The notes beneath the pieces were generated by a model. It ran no database searches, was not told the origin of the DNA, and saw only the letters and a list, made by a program, of their open reading frames with translations. A stretch of 34,076 nt of DNA from positions 1 to 34,076 of the forward strand of contig JAAYJW010000510.1 of assembly GCA_012522765.1 (NCBI GenBank). The letters run 5' to 3'. Source of the DNA: a candidate division WS1 bacterium (lineage in GTDB: Bacteria > Armatimonadota > Zipacnadia > Zipacnadales > UBA5352). Each line of letters begins with the position of its first letter. Positions within the stretch are counted from its first letter, which is position 1. Below are positions 12,415 to 20,576 of this stretch, in pieces. A program made the position numbers and the translations under genes.

Positions 12415-13182
12415 ATGCTCAGACACACGTTCATCCATCTGCCGGGCGTCGGAGCGAGCACCGAGTGCTCGCTGTGGCAGCAGGGCGTGTTGACATGGGC
12501 GGACGCGCTCGATCTGAGCGCATGTCCGACGGGTTTTGGCGCCGGTCGCTGGGACAGCAGTTGCCGGTTGCTGGAAGAGTCGCTGCGCAGTCTTGAGCGC
12601 GGCGACTACCGGCACTTCGCGCGGGCGCTCCCGAGCTGCGAACAGTGGCGCGCATGGCCGGACTTCCAGCGGCGCACGGTCTACCTCGACATCGAGACGA
12701 CAGGCTGTCACGGTATGGATCGGGTGACGGTCGCGGGGCTGTACGACGGCGCGCGCACGATGAGTTTCATCGCCGGGGACAATCTCGACGAACTCCCCGA
12801 GGCGCTCGAGCAGTACGCCATGATCGTGACCTTCAACGGCGCCAGCTTCGACCTGCCCTTCCTCATGCGCCGCTTCCCGGACCTGGAGTTCGATCACCTG
12901 CACCTCGACCTGATGCACGCGCTACGCCGGCTCGGCTACAGCGGCGGCCTCAAGTCCATCGAGCGGCAGGTCGGCATCGGGCGTGATGATGACCTCGCCG
13001 GGCTCAGTGGCTGGGACGCAGTAAGGTTGTGGCGCGAATACTGCGCGGGCCGGCAGGAATCGCTGGACACGCTGGTTCGGTACAATGCCGCGGACATAGA
13101 GAATCTTGAGCAGTTGGCGCAGTTGGCATACCGGGGCATCCGGGCGGGATTGTCACTCCCCTGCGATCGAGGCGAGGCGTAG
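12415..13182 (+). CDS. YprB-type RNase H-like 3'-5' exonuclease domain protein
   Basis: This 255-residue protein has a DEDD exonuclease-type RNase H fold. The four acidic residues are visible: Asp92 and Glu94 (YLDIETTG), Asp146 (FNGASFDLPFL) and Asp227 (YNAADIENL). The conserved HLDLMHALRRLG and GLKSIERQVGI are typical of the YprB_RNaseH-like family. In Bacillus YprB this domain is followed by TPR repeats; here it ends after the nuclease, so this is a short form with an ~85-residue N-terminal extension. It probably trims single-stranded RNA or DNA. It starts 4 bases after the threonine aldolase stop, and its own stop overlaps the next start (TAGTG). Confidence 0.88.
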   Translation: MLRHTFIHLPGVGASTECSLWQQGVLTWADALDLSACPTGFGAGRWDSSCRLLEESLRSLERGDYRHFARALPSCEQWRAWPDFQRRTVYLDIETTGCHGMDRVTVAGLYDGARTMSFIAGDNLDELPEALEQYAMIVTFNGASFDLPFLMRRFPDLEFDHLHLDLMHALRRLGYSGGLKSIERQVGIGRDDDLAGLSGWDAVRLWREYCAGRQESLDTLVRYNAADIENLEQLAQLAYRGIRAGLSLPCDRGEA

Positions 13183-15435: not shown

Positions 15436-16503
15436 ATGGCCGCCAGCGCGCGGGAGGCCGTCTTTGAGCTGAAGCCGATGGGCATCGCGGACCTGCTCGA
15501 TGCGGTGATCCGGCTCTATCGGCAGCATTTCGGCGAGCTGATCCGGATCGGCGCGGTGGTCTACGTCCCGCTGGGCGTGCTGCAGGTCATTTCGTCGGCT
15601 CTGATGTTTCAGGGCTTCGACGCGCAATCCCCCGAACCGACCTTTCCCGCCGTCACACTCGCCGGGGGTATCGGCTACGGCTTCTTCCTGCTGCTCTTTC
15701 TGCTCTCCATCCCGCTGATGCAGGCGGCGATTGCGAAGGCGGTCGCGGAGATCTACCTCGGCGGCGCCCCGACCATCGGCTCGGTGTACCGCTTCGCGTT
15801 CCGCAGGTGGTGGCCGCTGGTAGCCGTCGCGATCATCACCGGGCTGATCGGCTTTGTGGTGACGGCCATCGCCCTGGCGCCGCTGGTGGGCATAGCCGTA
15901 GCGGTGGGTGCGTTCGGTGACGAGACGGCAATGACCGTCGGTATCGTCCTTGCGGTGGTGGGACTGATCGCCTTCCTCGCGGCGCTCAATGCGGCCGTCG
16001 CGATCACCATCAGGCTCTTCTTCGGGCCACTTGTGGTCGTGCTGGAGGAGGAGGGGGCTGTCGCCGCGCTCCACCGCAGTTGGGAACTGACGGGCGGGCA
16101 CTTCTGGCGCATCCTCATCGCCATCGGGATTCTGTGGCTAATGGTGACCGTCCTCACAGGCGTCGTGGTCTGGCCCGCGCAGATCGGCACGTACTTCCTG
16201 CAGGAGGTCTCCTTCAGCGCGGCGCAGGCGGTACTCAACGGCCTCTCTGCGTTCGCCCAACTTTTTGTCCAGCCGATTCAGATCATTGGCACAGTGCTGC
16301 TGTACTACGACCTGCGCATGCGCAAGGAGGGCTTTGATCTCGTCATGATGGCGGAGGCCATCGGCGAGCCCGAACTTGCGGTGCGCGCGACATCAGGCGA
16401 GGCGCTGCCGGCGCTCTACGGACCGGCGGCGGCGCAGGCGCCTCCACCACCCCCGGAGAGTGAAGCAGACGATGAACCAGAGGATACAGATCAGCACCTC
16501 TGA
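15436..16503 (+). CDS. Membrane protein with glycerophosphodiesterase-type membrane domain
   Basis: The 355-residue protein has about six membrane spans after a short soluble start (FELKPMGIADLLDAVIRLYR, then FGELIRIGAVVYVP). Family hallmarks are the loop VVVLEEEGAVAALHRSWELT and the C-terminal LLYYDLRMRKEGFDL, both common in GPDPase_memb/DUF7847 proteins. No catalytic phosphodiesterase domain follows; instead there is a soluble tail with a Pro run and acidic residues. Its start abuts the stop of the nucleotidyltransferase gene with no gap. The function of stand-alone forms is unknown. Confidence 0.85.
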   Translation: MAASAREAVFELKPMGIADLLDAVIRLYRQHFGELIRIGAVVYVPLGVLQVISSALMFQGFDAQSPEPTFPAVTLAGGIGYGFFLLLFLLSIPLMQAAIAKAVAEIYLGGAPTIGSVYRFAFRRWWPLVAVAIITGLIGFVVTAIALAPLVGIAVAVGAFGDETAMTVGIVLAVVGLIAFLAALNAAVAITIRLFFGPLVVVLEEEGAVAALHRSWELTGGHFWRILIAIGILWLMVTVLTGVVVWPAQIGTYFLQEVSFSAAQAVLNGLSAFAQLFVQPIQIIGTVLLYYDLRMRKEGFDLVMMAEAIGEPELAVRATSGEALPALYGPAAAQAPPPPPESEADDEPEDTDQHL

Positions 16504-17398
16504 ACCTGCGGCCTCGGCCGCCGCAGTGCTTCTGACGCAGGACGCGCCGCAGGCTGCAGAGCTGCTGTGGAATATGCTTGAGACGCCGTTCGTGGGGCGG
16601 GCGGTGCATGCGATCTACGCCGGCCCCGCGGTGCTGCTGGCCATCCCTGAGCGCCACGGCGAGCCGCGCGGCGGGCAGATACCGGTGGAGAACGAGACGG
16701 AGCGGCCCGAGCCGGGCGACATCATGTTGCTGCCCGCGGCGGAGGATAGTGCTGAAGACATCTGGGGCGAGCCAGGTCCTGACGGAGGCGTGACGCTCGC
16801 CATCTTCTACGGTGAGCAGGGGCGCCCCTTCACCCCCAGTGGCTGGCAGCCCGGCGTGGTGGTCGCGAAGATCACCGACGGGATGGGGGCCATCCGCGAG
16901 GCCGGGCGGGCGATTCGCTTCGAGGGCGCGCGCGAGGTCTGCATCGGCCGCGAAGCCTGTGCGGGCGAGATCACCGAGGCGGTGCTGCACGCGGACGGCG
17001 CCTCGCTTGGCAACCCCGGACCGGCTGGAGCGGGCTTCGTTCTCGAGACGCCCGACGGGCGGCTGATCTCTGAGGGGTCGGTGCCACTCGAGCCGACCAC
17101 CGTGAACGTGGCGGAGTATCGCGCACTCATCGCGGGCCTCAGTGAGGCGCAGCGGCTGAAGATACGCACGGTGCACGCGCTGCTGGACAGCCAGCTTATC
17201 GTGAGGCAGCTATCCGGCGAGTATCGTGTTAAGGCCGCGATCCTGCGGCCGCTCTACCAGTGGGCGAGCAAGCTCATCAGCAAGTTCGAGCACTTTGACT
17301 GCCGGCACGTGCCACGTGAGCAGAACGCGCGCGCTGACGAACTGGCGGGCGAGGCCGCGAAGAAGTCGAAGGAGAGGCATGGGCGCAATGGCCGGTGA
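16472..17398 (+). CDS. DUF3830 (cyclophilin-like) - RNase HI fusion protein
   Basis: This 308-residue protein has two parts. Residues ~5-165 resemble DUF3830, a cyclophilin-like fold: VLLTQDAPQAAELLWNMLE, AVHAIYAGPAVLL, PVENETERPEPGDIMLLP, LAIFYGEQGRPF, and VVAKITDG. Residues ~170-300 are RNase HI with all four catalytic acids: Asp175 (LHADGASLGNPGPAG), Glu215 (AEYRALIAGL), Asp239 (LLDSQLIVRQLSGEYRVK) and Asp289 (NARADELAGEA). The second part should cut the RNA strand of RNA:DNA hybrids. The first part may bind a small ligand. The ATG at 16472 lies 32 bases inside the preceding gene; its ribosome site is weak, so the start is less sure than the domains. Confidence 0.85.
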   Translation: MNQRIQISTSEPAASAAAVLLTQDAPQAAELLWNMLETPFVGRAVHAIYAGPAVLLAIPERHGEPRGGQIPVENETERPEPGDIMLLPAAEDSAEDIWGEPGPDGGVTLAIFYGEQGRPFTPSGWQPGVVVAKITDGMGAIREAGRAIRFEGAREVCIGREACAGEITEAVLHADGASLGNPGPAGAGFVLETPDGRLISEGSVPLEPTTVNVAEYRALIAGLSEAQRLKIRTVHALLDSQLIVRQLSGEYRVKAAILRPLYQWASKLISKFEHFDCRHVPREQNARADELAGEAAKKSKERHGRNGR

Positions 17399-17873
17399 CA
17401 GCGGGTGGCTCAACCGCGTGAGCTGGATCATCGAGGGCGAGATCGCCGCGTTCTCGGCTTTCGTGCTGAGAGACCTCGATGCGCTCGCGGAGATGGGCAT
17501 CTGCGGAATCGTCTCGCTGACCGAGGACTCGCCGATTGAGCTGGTCGGTGAGGGGACGCGCTTTCGGCTTCTGCACATCCCGGTGACTGACATGACGCCC
17601 CCCGACAGCGATCAGATCGCGCGCTTCGTGAGCTTCGTGGAGACGCTGGTGGATGAGGGCTGCGCAGTGGGAGTGCATTGCCTCGCGGGTCTCGGTCGCA
17701 CCGGCACGATGATCGCGTGCTACCTCGTGAGCGAGGGACACGGTGCTGACGAGGCGATCGCGATGGTCCGGCGCGCCCGGCCGGGGTCGATTCAGACGGA
17801 AGAGCAGGAACAGGCGATCCGCCGCTGGGAGCGCTCACAACGCGGCGGATCGGCCATGGCTGAGTTTCTGTAG
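17379..17873 (+). CDS. Dual-specificity / tyrosine-type protein phosphatase
   Basis: This 164-residue cysteine phosphatase has the P-loop HCLAGLGRTG, giving nucleophile Cys101 and Arg107. A general-acid candidate is Asp71 in IPVTDMTPPD. The opening NRVSWIIEGEIAAF and ALAEMGICGIVSLTE match the small DSP/PTP family seen in archaea and bacteria. The substrate could be phosphotyrosine protein, phosphoinositide or nucleotide. The ATG at 17379 lies inside the end of the RNase H gene (20-base overlap) behind AAGGAG; ATG 17388 is an alternative. It is the last gene of the seven-gene run and is followed by a hairpin. Confidence 0.9.
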   Translation: MGAMAGDSGWLNRVSWIIEGEIAAFSAFVLRDLDALAEMGICGIVSLTEDSPIELVGEGTRFRLLHIPVTDMTPPDSDQIARFVSFVETLVDEGCAVGVHCLAGLGRTGTMIACYLVSEGHGADEAIAMVRRARPGSIQTEEQEQAIRRWERSQRGGSAMAEFL

Positions 17874-17996: not shown

Positions 17997-20576
17997 CTAC
18001 GCCGGCTCCTCGCGCTCGACGAGTTCGATCGCGCACTGCGGGCAGATGAGGTAGCAGAGACCGCAACTGTCGCAGACCTCGGGATCGACGCGCGTAACGT
18101 CGTCCACGCGCTCAATCGCCCGCCACGGGCAGACGCGGACGCAGTCGCCGCAGTTGCTGCAGCGGCCGCAGTCCATGCAGCGCACAGCCTCCGCGCGGCC
18201 AAGCTCCTCCGGCAGCCCCAGCGCAACCTCACCGAAGTCCGTGACGCGTTCCTCCGCCGGACGCACCGGCATCCGCTGACGCCGCGTGAGCACGATCGGC
18301 TGGCTCTCGCGGATGACCTGCTCAGGCTCCACGCGCTCCATCGCAGGCTCGGGTCGCGGGACCTCCTCGCCCTGCAGGAAGCCGGCGATCGTGAAAGCCG
18401 CGCGCTTGCCGGCGGCCATGGCCTCAACGAGCGGGCCTGAGCCCGTGACGCAGTCGCCGCAGGCGAAGATGTCCAGCTCGCAGGTCGCGCCGCTGTCGGC
18501 ATCTGCAAGCACCCTGTCGCCCTCGCAGAGACGGTCGAGCCCCACGCTCTTGAGCCACCCGATGTCGGGGATCTGCCCGACGGAGACGACCACGGTGTCG
18601 CACTCGATGATCTCGCTGGAGCCCTCGATCTCCTCGAAGCCCACGCGGCCATCGGGACCGGGCTGTGTCATGCGCGTTCGGGCGAAGCGCACTCCCGCAA
18701 CGCGGCCGCCCTCGTTGATGATCTCCACGGGCTGAAGCTGGTCCACGAGCTCGACGCCCTCCTCCAGCGCCTCCTCGATCTCCTCGCGGCGGGCGGGCAT
18801 GTCCTCGAAGCGCCGGCGGTAGGCCAGCGTGACCCGATCTATGAGGCGGATGGAGACACGCGCGCTATCCACGGCGACATCGCCGCCGCCGATGACGACC
18901 ACGTGCTCGCCGAGCGCGACCGGCTCACCCAGCGCATGCTCGCGCAGGAGGCGCACGCCGTCAATGACGCCCTCAAGCTGCTCGCCGGGGATGCCCAGCT
19001 TGCGCTGGCGGTGACCGCCGACGGCGAGCAGGATCGCGGAGTAGCCCTGCTCGCGCAGGTCATCGAGGCTCACGTCGCGCCCGACCGACACGCCCGTGCG
19101 GATCTCCACGCCGAGGCCCTCGATCTCGCCGATCTCATGTCTGACGACGTCGCGCGGCAGGCGGTACTCCGGGATACCGACGGCGAGCATGCCGCCCGCC
19201 ACCGGAAGGCGCTCGAAGACGGTGGAGCGGTAGCCCATCAGCGCGAGGCGGTAGGCGGCGGTGAGGCCACCGGGACCCGCGCCGACGATCGCCACGCGCT
19301 CGTCACGCCATGGCGGCGGCTCGGGCGTCTCAGGCAGGTAGCGGCCGCCGTGATCGGCGGCGAATCGCTTCATGGCCGCGATGGAGATCGGGTCATCCAC
19401 CTCGCCACGTGTGCAGGCCGTCTCGCAGGGGTGATGGCAGCAGCGCCCCAGGACGCCGGGGAACGGGTGATTCTGTTTGATCAGCCGCAGCGCGTGGTCA
19501 TACTTGCCCTCCGCGATCAGGTTGAGATAGCCCTGCGCGTCCTCGTTGATAGGGCACTCCCAGCGGCACGGAGCGGTTCCGCGTGGCTGGATATCCGCGA
19601 CCACAAGATGGCGCCGGTCAACCTGGTCGAGCGGGGTGATGCGCTCAGTCAGCTCTCCGCGAATCTCATCGAGCGTCTCGAGTCCGCGCGCTTCCATGAA
19701 CTCCAGCAGTTGCGCGTTGAGGCGCGTGAGGATCTCAAAGCCCTCAAGGTAGATGCCGGTGCAGACCTGCACTGTCTGCGCGCCGGCCATGATGTACGCG
19801 AGGGCGTGTTCCGCCTCAGAGACGCCGCCGCTGGCGCTGATCTGCAGATCGGTGCCGGGGGAGACGGTGTTGACCCAGCGAAGTACGAAGTTGCGCGCCC
19901 ACGGGCCCCCGTGGCCCGCATAGCCGCCGTGCATCACGGGCCGGCCCGTCTCCACGTCCACCTCAAGGCCGGTGAAGCGGTTGAACATCGTGACGCCCTC
20001 GGCGCCAATCTCCTCGATGGCCTTTACGAAGCTCATCGGGGAGGTGAGCTGCGGCGTGAGCTTGATGATGAGCGGCAGATCGATCGCCCTGCGCAGTTCC
20101 TCGACCACCTCGAGGATTCGGCGCTCGACATCCTGGCCGCTGAAGGCGATTGAGCCGTGCGGGCAGGAGACATTCGCCTCGATCGCCGCCGGACCGGCCT
20201 GAGCGACGATGCGCGTGGCCTCCAGCCAGCTCTCGACGCACTGGCAGTCGATGTTGGGGATGACCGGGATCGAGAGGGCCTCGACAGTGCGGGCGACCTC
20301 GGCGGCGTAGTCGTGTATGTCGAAGTGGCTGGCCTGTTCGTATGAGTAGAAGGTGAAAGCATCGCGGTCGGCCATCTCGTGCTCGATGACCCGGTAGCGT
20401 GGTGCGGGCGACTTGCGCATCGCCTCGATGTCGGAAAAGCCCTTCATGATGACCGCGCCCGCGCCGGCATCCTCGGCTCGGCGCATCTGGTCGAGGTCCT
20501 TGGTAATCGCGGCGGAGCCGGCAATGAGAGGGCTGGGCAGCGTCAGGCCGACGAAGCTGGTCTTCAGGGTGGGCAA
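17997..20576 (-). CDS. Fused FMN barrel - GltD-type FAD/NAD(P)H - ferredoxin oxidoreductase (dihydropyrimidine dehydrogenase-like)
   Basis: The 859-residue protein has four parts. Residues 1-~315 are a dihydroorotate/dihydropyrimidine dehydrogenase FMN barrel (SPLIAGSAAITKD, VIPNIDCQC, EANVSCPHG, LIIKLTPQL, ISASGGV). Residues ~335-415 are the GltD-type Fe-S helical domain (CRWECPINEDAQGYL, GRCCHHPCETAC). Residues ~425-745 are the FAD and NAD(P)H domains (AIVGAGPGGLTAAYRL, VVVIGGGDVAVDSARV, DIFACGDCVTGSGPLVEAM). The end (~800-850) is a double [4Fe-4S] ferredoxin (CMDCGRCSNCGDCVRVCP and CDSCGLCYLICP). Electrons should run NAD(P)H-FAD-FeS-FMN. The DPD catalytic Cys position appears to be Ser (AFSGQD). 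The TTG start is set by TGGAGGTC nine bases upstream. Pyrimidine or another unsaturated substrate is possible. Confidence 0.92.
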   Translation of the reverse strand: MPTLKTSFVGLTLPSPLIAGSAAITKDLDQMRRAEDAGAGAVIMKGFSDIEAMRKSPAPRYRVIEHEMADRDAFTFYSYEQASHFDIHDYAAEVARTVEALSIPVIPNIDCQCVESWLEATRIVAQAGPAAIEANVSCPHGSIAFSGQDVERRILEVVEELRRAIDLPLIIKLTPQLTSPMSFVKAIEEIGAEGVTMFNRFTGLEVDVETGRPVMHGGYAGHGGPWARNFVLRWVNTVSPGTDLQISASGGVSEAEHALAYIMAGAQTVQVCTGIYLEGFEILTRLNAQLLEFMEARGLETLDEIRGELTERITPLDQVDRRHLVVADIQPRGTAPCRWECPINEDAQGYLNLIAEGKYDHALRLIKQNHPFPGVLGRCCHHPCETACTRGEVDDPISIAAMKRFAADHGGRYLPETPEPPPWRDERVAIVGAGPGGLTAAYRLALMGYRSTVFERLPVAGGMLAVGIPEYRLPRDVVRHEIGEIEGLGVEIRTGVSVGRDVSLDDLREQGYSAILLAVGGHRQRKLGIPGEQLEGVIDGVRLLREHALGEPVALGEHVVVIGGGDVAVDSARVSIRLIDRVTLAYRRRFEDMPARREEIEEALEEGVELVDQLQPVEIINEGGRVAGVRFARTRMTQPGPDGRVGFEEIEGSSEIIECDTVVVSVGQIPDIGWLKSVGLDRLCEGDRVLADADSGATCELDIFACGDCVTGSGPLVEAMAAGKRAAFTIAGFLQGEEVPRPEPAMERVEPEQVIRESQPIVLTRRQRMPVRPAEERVTDFGEVALGLPEELGRAEAVRCMDCGRCSNCGDCVRVCPWRAIERVDDVTRVDPEVCDSCGLCYLICPQCAIELVEREEPA

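Follow-up and report, generated by a model that had tools for sequence, protein, structure and literature searches.

An RNase HI joined to a DUF3830 cyclophilin-like domain in one family of Candidatus Zipacnadia

In RNase H1, the accessory domain that stands N-terminal to the RNase HI is a hybrid-binding domain, which is basic. RNases HI of the Rv2228c, LC11 and archaeal type (PF13456; 3hst, 3u3g/4h8k and 4e19) share one fold and four catalytic acids and lack a DUF3830 domain; Rv2228c carries a C-terminal CobC domain. This last arrangement, RNase HI-CobC of the Actinomycetales (NF005567; Rv2228c, MSMEG_4305 and SCO2299), joins RNase HI to a histidine phosphatase. Its two domains are dissociable in vivo, where truncation of the partner hardly mattered and drift was proposed, and the partner domain did influence RNase activity in vitro (PMC7466739). 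Here we describe, in a 34,076-nucleotide stretch of DNA from a candidate division WS1 bacterium (contig JAAYJW010000510.1; the window), an RNase HI of the same subfamily. As in RNase HI-CobC, its partner is of a metabolic type, the fusion is lineage-restricted and the RNase HI is the more conserved part, but the partner is an N-terminal cyclophilin-like domain instead of a C-terminal phosphatase. We found no literature that names DUF3830 or pairs "cyclophilin-like fold" with "RNase H", and the DUF3830-RNase HI fusion appears to be undescribed. The architecture is new for an enzyme that has been studied very closely, and it has been kept across a bacterial family; it provides a natural before/after case in which to ask how an accessory domain affects RNase HI.

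The ORF call reproduced the coordinates and strand given in an earlier, sequence-only reading of the window (16472-17398, +), and the claim made there that DUF3830 is joined to a complete RNase HI also stood, both Pfam domains scoring above their gathering cut-offs. DUF3830 (PF12903) was matched over residues 13-156 with E 5.5e-25 (88.4 bits, cut-off 26), and the RNase H part matched RVT_3/RNase H (PF13456) over residues 175-294 with E 3e-23 (82.5 bits, cut-off 21.6) and PF00075 with E 6e-9 (36.6 bits, cut-off 25.8). All four catalytic acids of RNase HI (D175, E215, D239 and D289) are intact and invariant across the orthologues (Table 1). Among NCBIfam families, NF005567 matched the RNase H part best, at 119.7 bits against a cut-off of 326 and covering this part only; identity as a bifunctional RNase HI-CobC was rejected, the C-terminal CobC phosphatase domain being absent and the score below the cut-off.

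Table 1 Features of the fusion gene and its flanking genes, in positions of the window
Feature	Position	Strand	Evidence or remark
Fusion ORF, DUF3830 + RNase HI, single protein of 308 residues	16472..17398	+	ATG at 16472, stop codon ends at 17398; ORF call, Pfam, orthologues in 8/10 family genomes
DUF3830 (cyclophilin-like) domain, residues 13-156	16508..16939	+	Pfam; PDB 3kop by profile (E 2.4e-22) and by fold (TM ~0.8)
Ala53	16628..16630	+	Glu in 14/14 other DUF3830 domains, Ala in 8/8 fusions
Fusion-specific loop RHGEPRGGQIP, residues 61-71	16652..16684	+	R, H, G, E, P, G68, Q, I and P invariant in 8/8
Thr108	16793..16795	+	Asp/Glu in 14/14 other DUF3830 domains, Thr in 8/8 fusions
Short variable linker, about residues 159-169	16946..16978	+	Alignment of 8 orthologues
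RNase HI domain, residues 170-296	16979..17359	+	Pfam; AF2 pLDDT >90 over most; best PDB matches 3hst, 4e19, 3u3g/4h8k
Catalytic Asp175	16994..16996	+	Invariant in orthologue alignment
Catalytic Glu215	17114..17116	+	Invariant in orthologue alignment
Catalytic Asp239	17186..17188	+	Invariant in orthologue alignment
Catalytic Asp289	17336..17338	+	Invariant in orthologue alignment
Membrane protein, GPDPase_memb-like, upstream	15436..16503	+	Conserved synteny; overlaps fusion start by 32 bases
Dual-specificity/PTP-SAK phosphatase, downstream	17379..17873	+	Start codon assumed; overlaps fusion end

The AF2 model of the full-length protein was poor over the DUF part (pLDDT <50 for residues 45-129). 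Modelled alone, the DUF domain reached a pTM of 0.82, two of five models being reasonable, and its best PDB match was 3kop, a solved DUF3830 relative (TM 0.79-0.82, E 3.7e-11). As modelled, the N-terminal domain has a cyclophilin-like fold, and the structural comparison that the sequence-only reading had proposed for it agrees with its assignment to DUF3830. Next in fold came the Pictet-Spengler enzymes McbB and KslB (3x27, 9ns6 and others; TM 0.63-0.70), followed by TM1367, AF2241 and cyclophilin A. A profile search also found McbB by sequence, weakly (E 0.0042, and 2.4e-22 for 3kop); McbB and KslB are larger than the DUF3830 domain and low in identity to it, and the likeness is confined to the fold and this weak profile match. 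The RNase H part was modelled with pLDDT >90 over most of its length and has its nearest matches in 3hst, 4e19 and LC11 (3u3g/4h8k), at TM 0.88-0.95.

Seven more genomes of the window's family encode the complete fusion, at 57-69% identity. The family, one of uncultivated sediment bacteria, belongs to the Armatimonadota class Candidatus Zipacnadia (described in PMC10290634); the fusion-bearing records are titled Candidatus Zipacnadia or Armatimonadetes UBA5352. All eight orthologues have kept the start ATG, the order of domains and the length, and a GGAG-like motif lies 5' of the start ATG in most of them. Pairwise dN/dS is about 0.2-0.5 for the DUF part and about 0.1-0.5 for the RNase H part, approximate values given partly saturated synonymous sites, and the linker evolves more freely than either part. 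To judge from these comparisons, the DUF3830 part of the fusions is under purifying selection. The window's assembly is fragmented (521 contigs), which could have pointed to an artefact of assembly or annotation, but the orthologues rule this out and we attach practically no credence to it: genomes of independent origin in at least two public series of assemblies, UBA5352 and the JALGSW/JALGUJ/JALGVA MAGs among them, carry the same fusion in the same synteny. That only the RNase H part is translated, an objection which the sequence-only reading had raised against itself, is unsupported because the start ATG is conserved in 8/8 and the DUF part is constrained. In most orthologues an in-frame GTG or ATG does lie about five codons 5' of the first catalytic Asp, from which most of the RNase HI might be made, the DUF3830 frame being vestigial. 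We consider such an internal start very improbable, since the frame of the DUF part, its start codon and its domain sequence have been preserved under purifying selection, no conserved ribosome-binding site was visible there by eye, and stand-alone relatives begin at least nine residues before the catalytic Asp.

Within the window's family, two of the ten genomes lack the fusion. One of them (G217) is 59% complete; in the other (G069) the locus as a whole is missing or unrelated, because the neighbouring phosphatase is also absent. No fusion was found outside the family among 251-291 Armatimonadota genomes, and its absence elsewhere is well sampled within this phylum, to which the statement is limited; the short peptide patterns with which 84,980 species genomes were scanned reach close relatives only. 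DUF3830 matches of any kind occur in 15/291 genomes of the phylum. Within the order, DUF3830 is found together with RNase H in members of the window's family only, and a single genome elsewhere in the order (G122, family f3) has an unlinked stand-alone DUF3830 gene in a catabolic-looking cluster. The fusions form one clade in the RNase H tree (support 98/95), among the order's stand-alone RNases HI, and their DUF domains form one clade in the DUF tree (98/98), with weakly resolved placement among other DUF3830. A genome of family f2 (G009) has an NTP-transferase, a membrane protein, a stand-alone RNase HI that begins 11 residues before the catalytic Asp, and a phosphatase, in the same order as at the fusion locus; in G122, the RNase HI likewise adjoins the membrane protein. 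The stand-alone enzyme in the syntenic slot of at least this one other family indicates that DUF3830 was added once ahead of a vertically inherited RNase HI. By these phylogenies, the fusion arose once, in the ancestor of one Candidatus Zipacnadia family.

The orthologous loci have the same two neighbours, the membrane protein and the phosphatase, and the overlap of the phosphatase with the fusion end holds if the phosphatase starts at 17379. A PTP-SAK/dual-specificity phosphatase also lies directly 3' of the RNase HI in family f2, where the fusion is absent. The fusion is the sole match to PF13456 and PF00075 in the window's genome (97.7% complete) and the only RNase HI found in some family genomes; RNase HI need not be essential there, because all ten have an RNase HII as well. 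PADLOC gave no match for the fusion and PHROGs recognised RNase H alone, so that there is no sign of a defence or phage origin. Neither a fusion nor, with the single pattern applied, a DUF3830 relative turned up in viral contigs; plasmids carry stand-alone DUF3830 and RNase HI, and none of their records matched the fusion over 80% of its length. Elsewhere in the window, a second RNase H-superfamily protein (PF13482, exonuclease-like) is encoded upstream at 12415-13182, separated from the fusion by three genes. At 17997-20576 (-) lies the gene of an 859-residue protein with dihydroorotate-dehydrogenase-like, FAD/NAD oxidoreductase and ferredoxin domains in a DPD-like order; its identity across the family is about 68-83%.

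We compared the eight fused DUF3830 domains with 14 not joined to RNase H, a small set. The fusion shares with DUF3830 and 3kop the fold and the core motifs AP, H46, G51, E73, Y113 and G152, of which H46, E73, Y113 and G152 were noted as retained across the fusions. It lacks Glu53 and Asp/Glu108, whose standing as a DUF3830 trait is an observation of this comparison and not a curated defining feature, and it has the loop RHGEP..GQIP, for which the 14 other domains offer no counterpart (Table 1). In one fusion, AD replaces RG at loop residues 66-67. The changed residues would line a predicted pocket. By sequence, then, the fused domain is a diverged member of DUF3830, and because none of the fusions keeps either of the two otherwise invariant acidic residues, it has probably left its ancestral chemistry, if any, while still under selection. 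The RHGE of the loop (16652-16663) resembles the RHG motif of histidine phosphatases, which CobC also has; we rejected this identity, there being no such Pfam match and the surrounding fold being different, and the likeness is probably a coincidence.

We infer RNase H activity from the intact active site: the protein would be a housekeeping RNase HI that cleaves the RNA strand in RNA:DNA hybrids by a two-metal, DEDD-type mechanism. The reading that we place first, while holding it with about as much doubt as belief, is that the RNase HI of the family's ancestor gained an N-terminal DUF3830 barrel that was then repurposed, with loss of the ancestral acidic residues and gain of a new conserved loop, and that would now be an accessory on the nuclease, binding a ligand or a protein. 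Constraint, the new invariant loop and the lost acidic residues argue indirectly for such a binding role, which agrees with the ligand or partner that the sequence-only reading had suggested to steer the nuclease. A metabolite-gated RNase HI, with a small molecule such as an amino-acid or amine derivative bound in the remodelled pocket, seems rather unlikely; if true, the metabolic state of these anaerobic sediment bacteria would tune the removal of hybrids or R-loops. The accessory barrel would not engage the hybrid in the way that a hybrid-binding domain does. Replacement of that domain of RNase H1, which might raise affinity or processivity on RNA:DNA hybrids, had been suggested in the sequence-only reading, and the N-terminal placement is indeed the same. 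However, the RNase H1 domain has a fold unrelated to DUF3830 and is basic, whereas the N-domain of the fusion is strongly acidic; hybrid binding is unlikely because every one of the eight orthologues has a computed pI of 4.4-5.7 and a net charge of -3 to -14. Stand-alone homologues in the same order, moreover, have no N-terminal domain at all, and we now disfavour the suggestion as highly improbable.

The main rival to the accessory reading holds that the two domains are independent, the DUF3830 domain keeping a metabolic role of its own, possibly catalysing reactions of amino-acid-derived compounds or binding them, and the fusion having been fixed by drift or co-expression. RNase HI-CobC provides the precedent (PMC7466739), and as its domains are functionally dissociable, an accessory role need not follow from the fusion. 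The catabolic operons in which stand-alone DUF3830 genes lie, beside genes for aminotransferases, FAD oxidoreductases and amino-acid transporters, a fold near the Pictet-Spenglerases McbB and KslB, and the lack of any second DUF3830 copy in the family genomes point the same way. Such independence is harder to reconcile with the disappearance of both acidic positions from all fusions and with the position of the fusion gene outside any catabolic operon, where other DUF3830 genes mostly lie. We regard it as doubtful, though a serious contender.

On plasmids, stand-alone DUF3830 genes adjoin GntR regulators as well as the aminotransferase, FAD oxidoreductase and amino-acid transporter genes named above. 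Because of these neighbourhoods and the likeness to McbB and KslB, we suggest that ordinary DUF3830 proteins may act on or bind amino-acid-derived small molecules; the fold tie makes the function of the stand-alone proteins directly testable. The statement in the sequence-only reading that DUF3830 proteins are usually stand-alone is mostly right, with an exception in three Armatimonadota of another family (f32; L059, L060 and L062). Their fusion is apparently undescribed, and its second part matched no Pfam family in L059 and L062; the single ORF continues past DUF3830 for about 250 residues, which contain Asp-box-like motifs (SPDEGRTW and SRDGGRSW).
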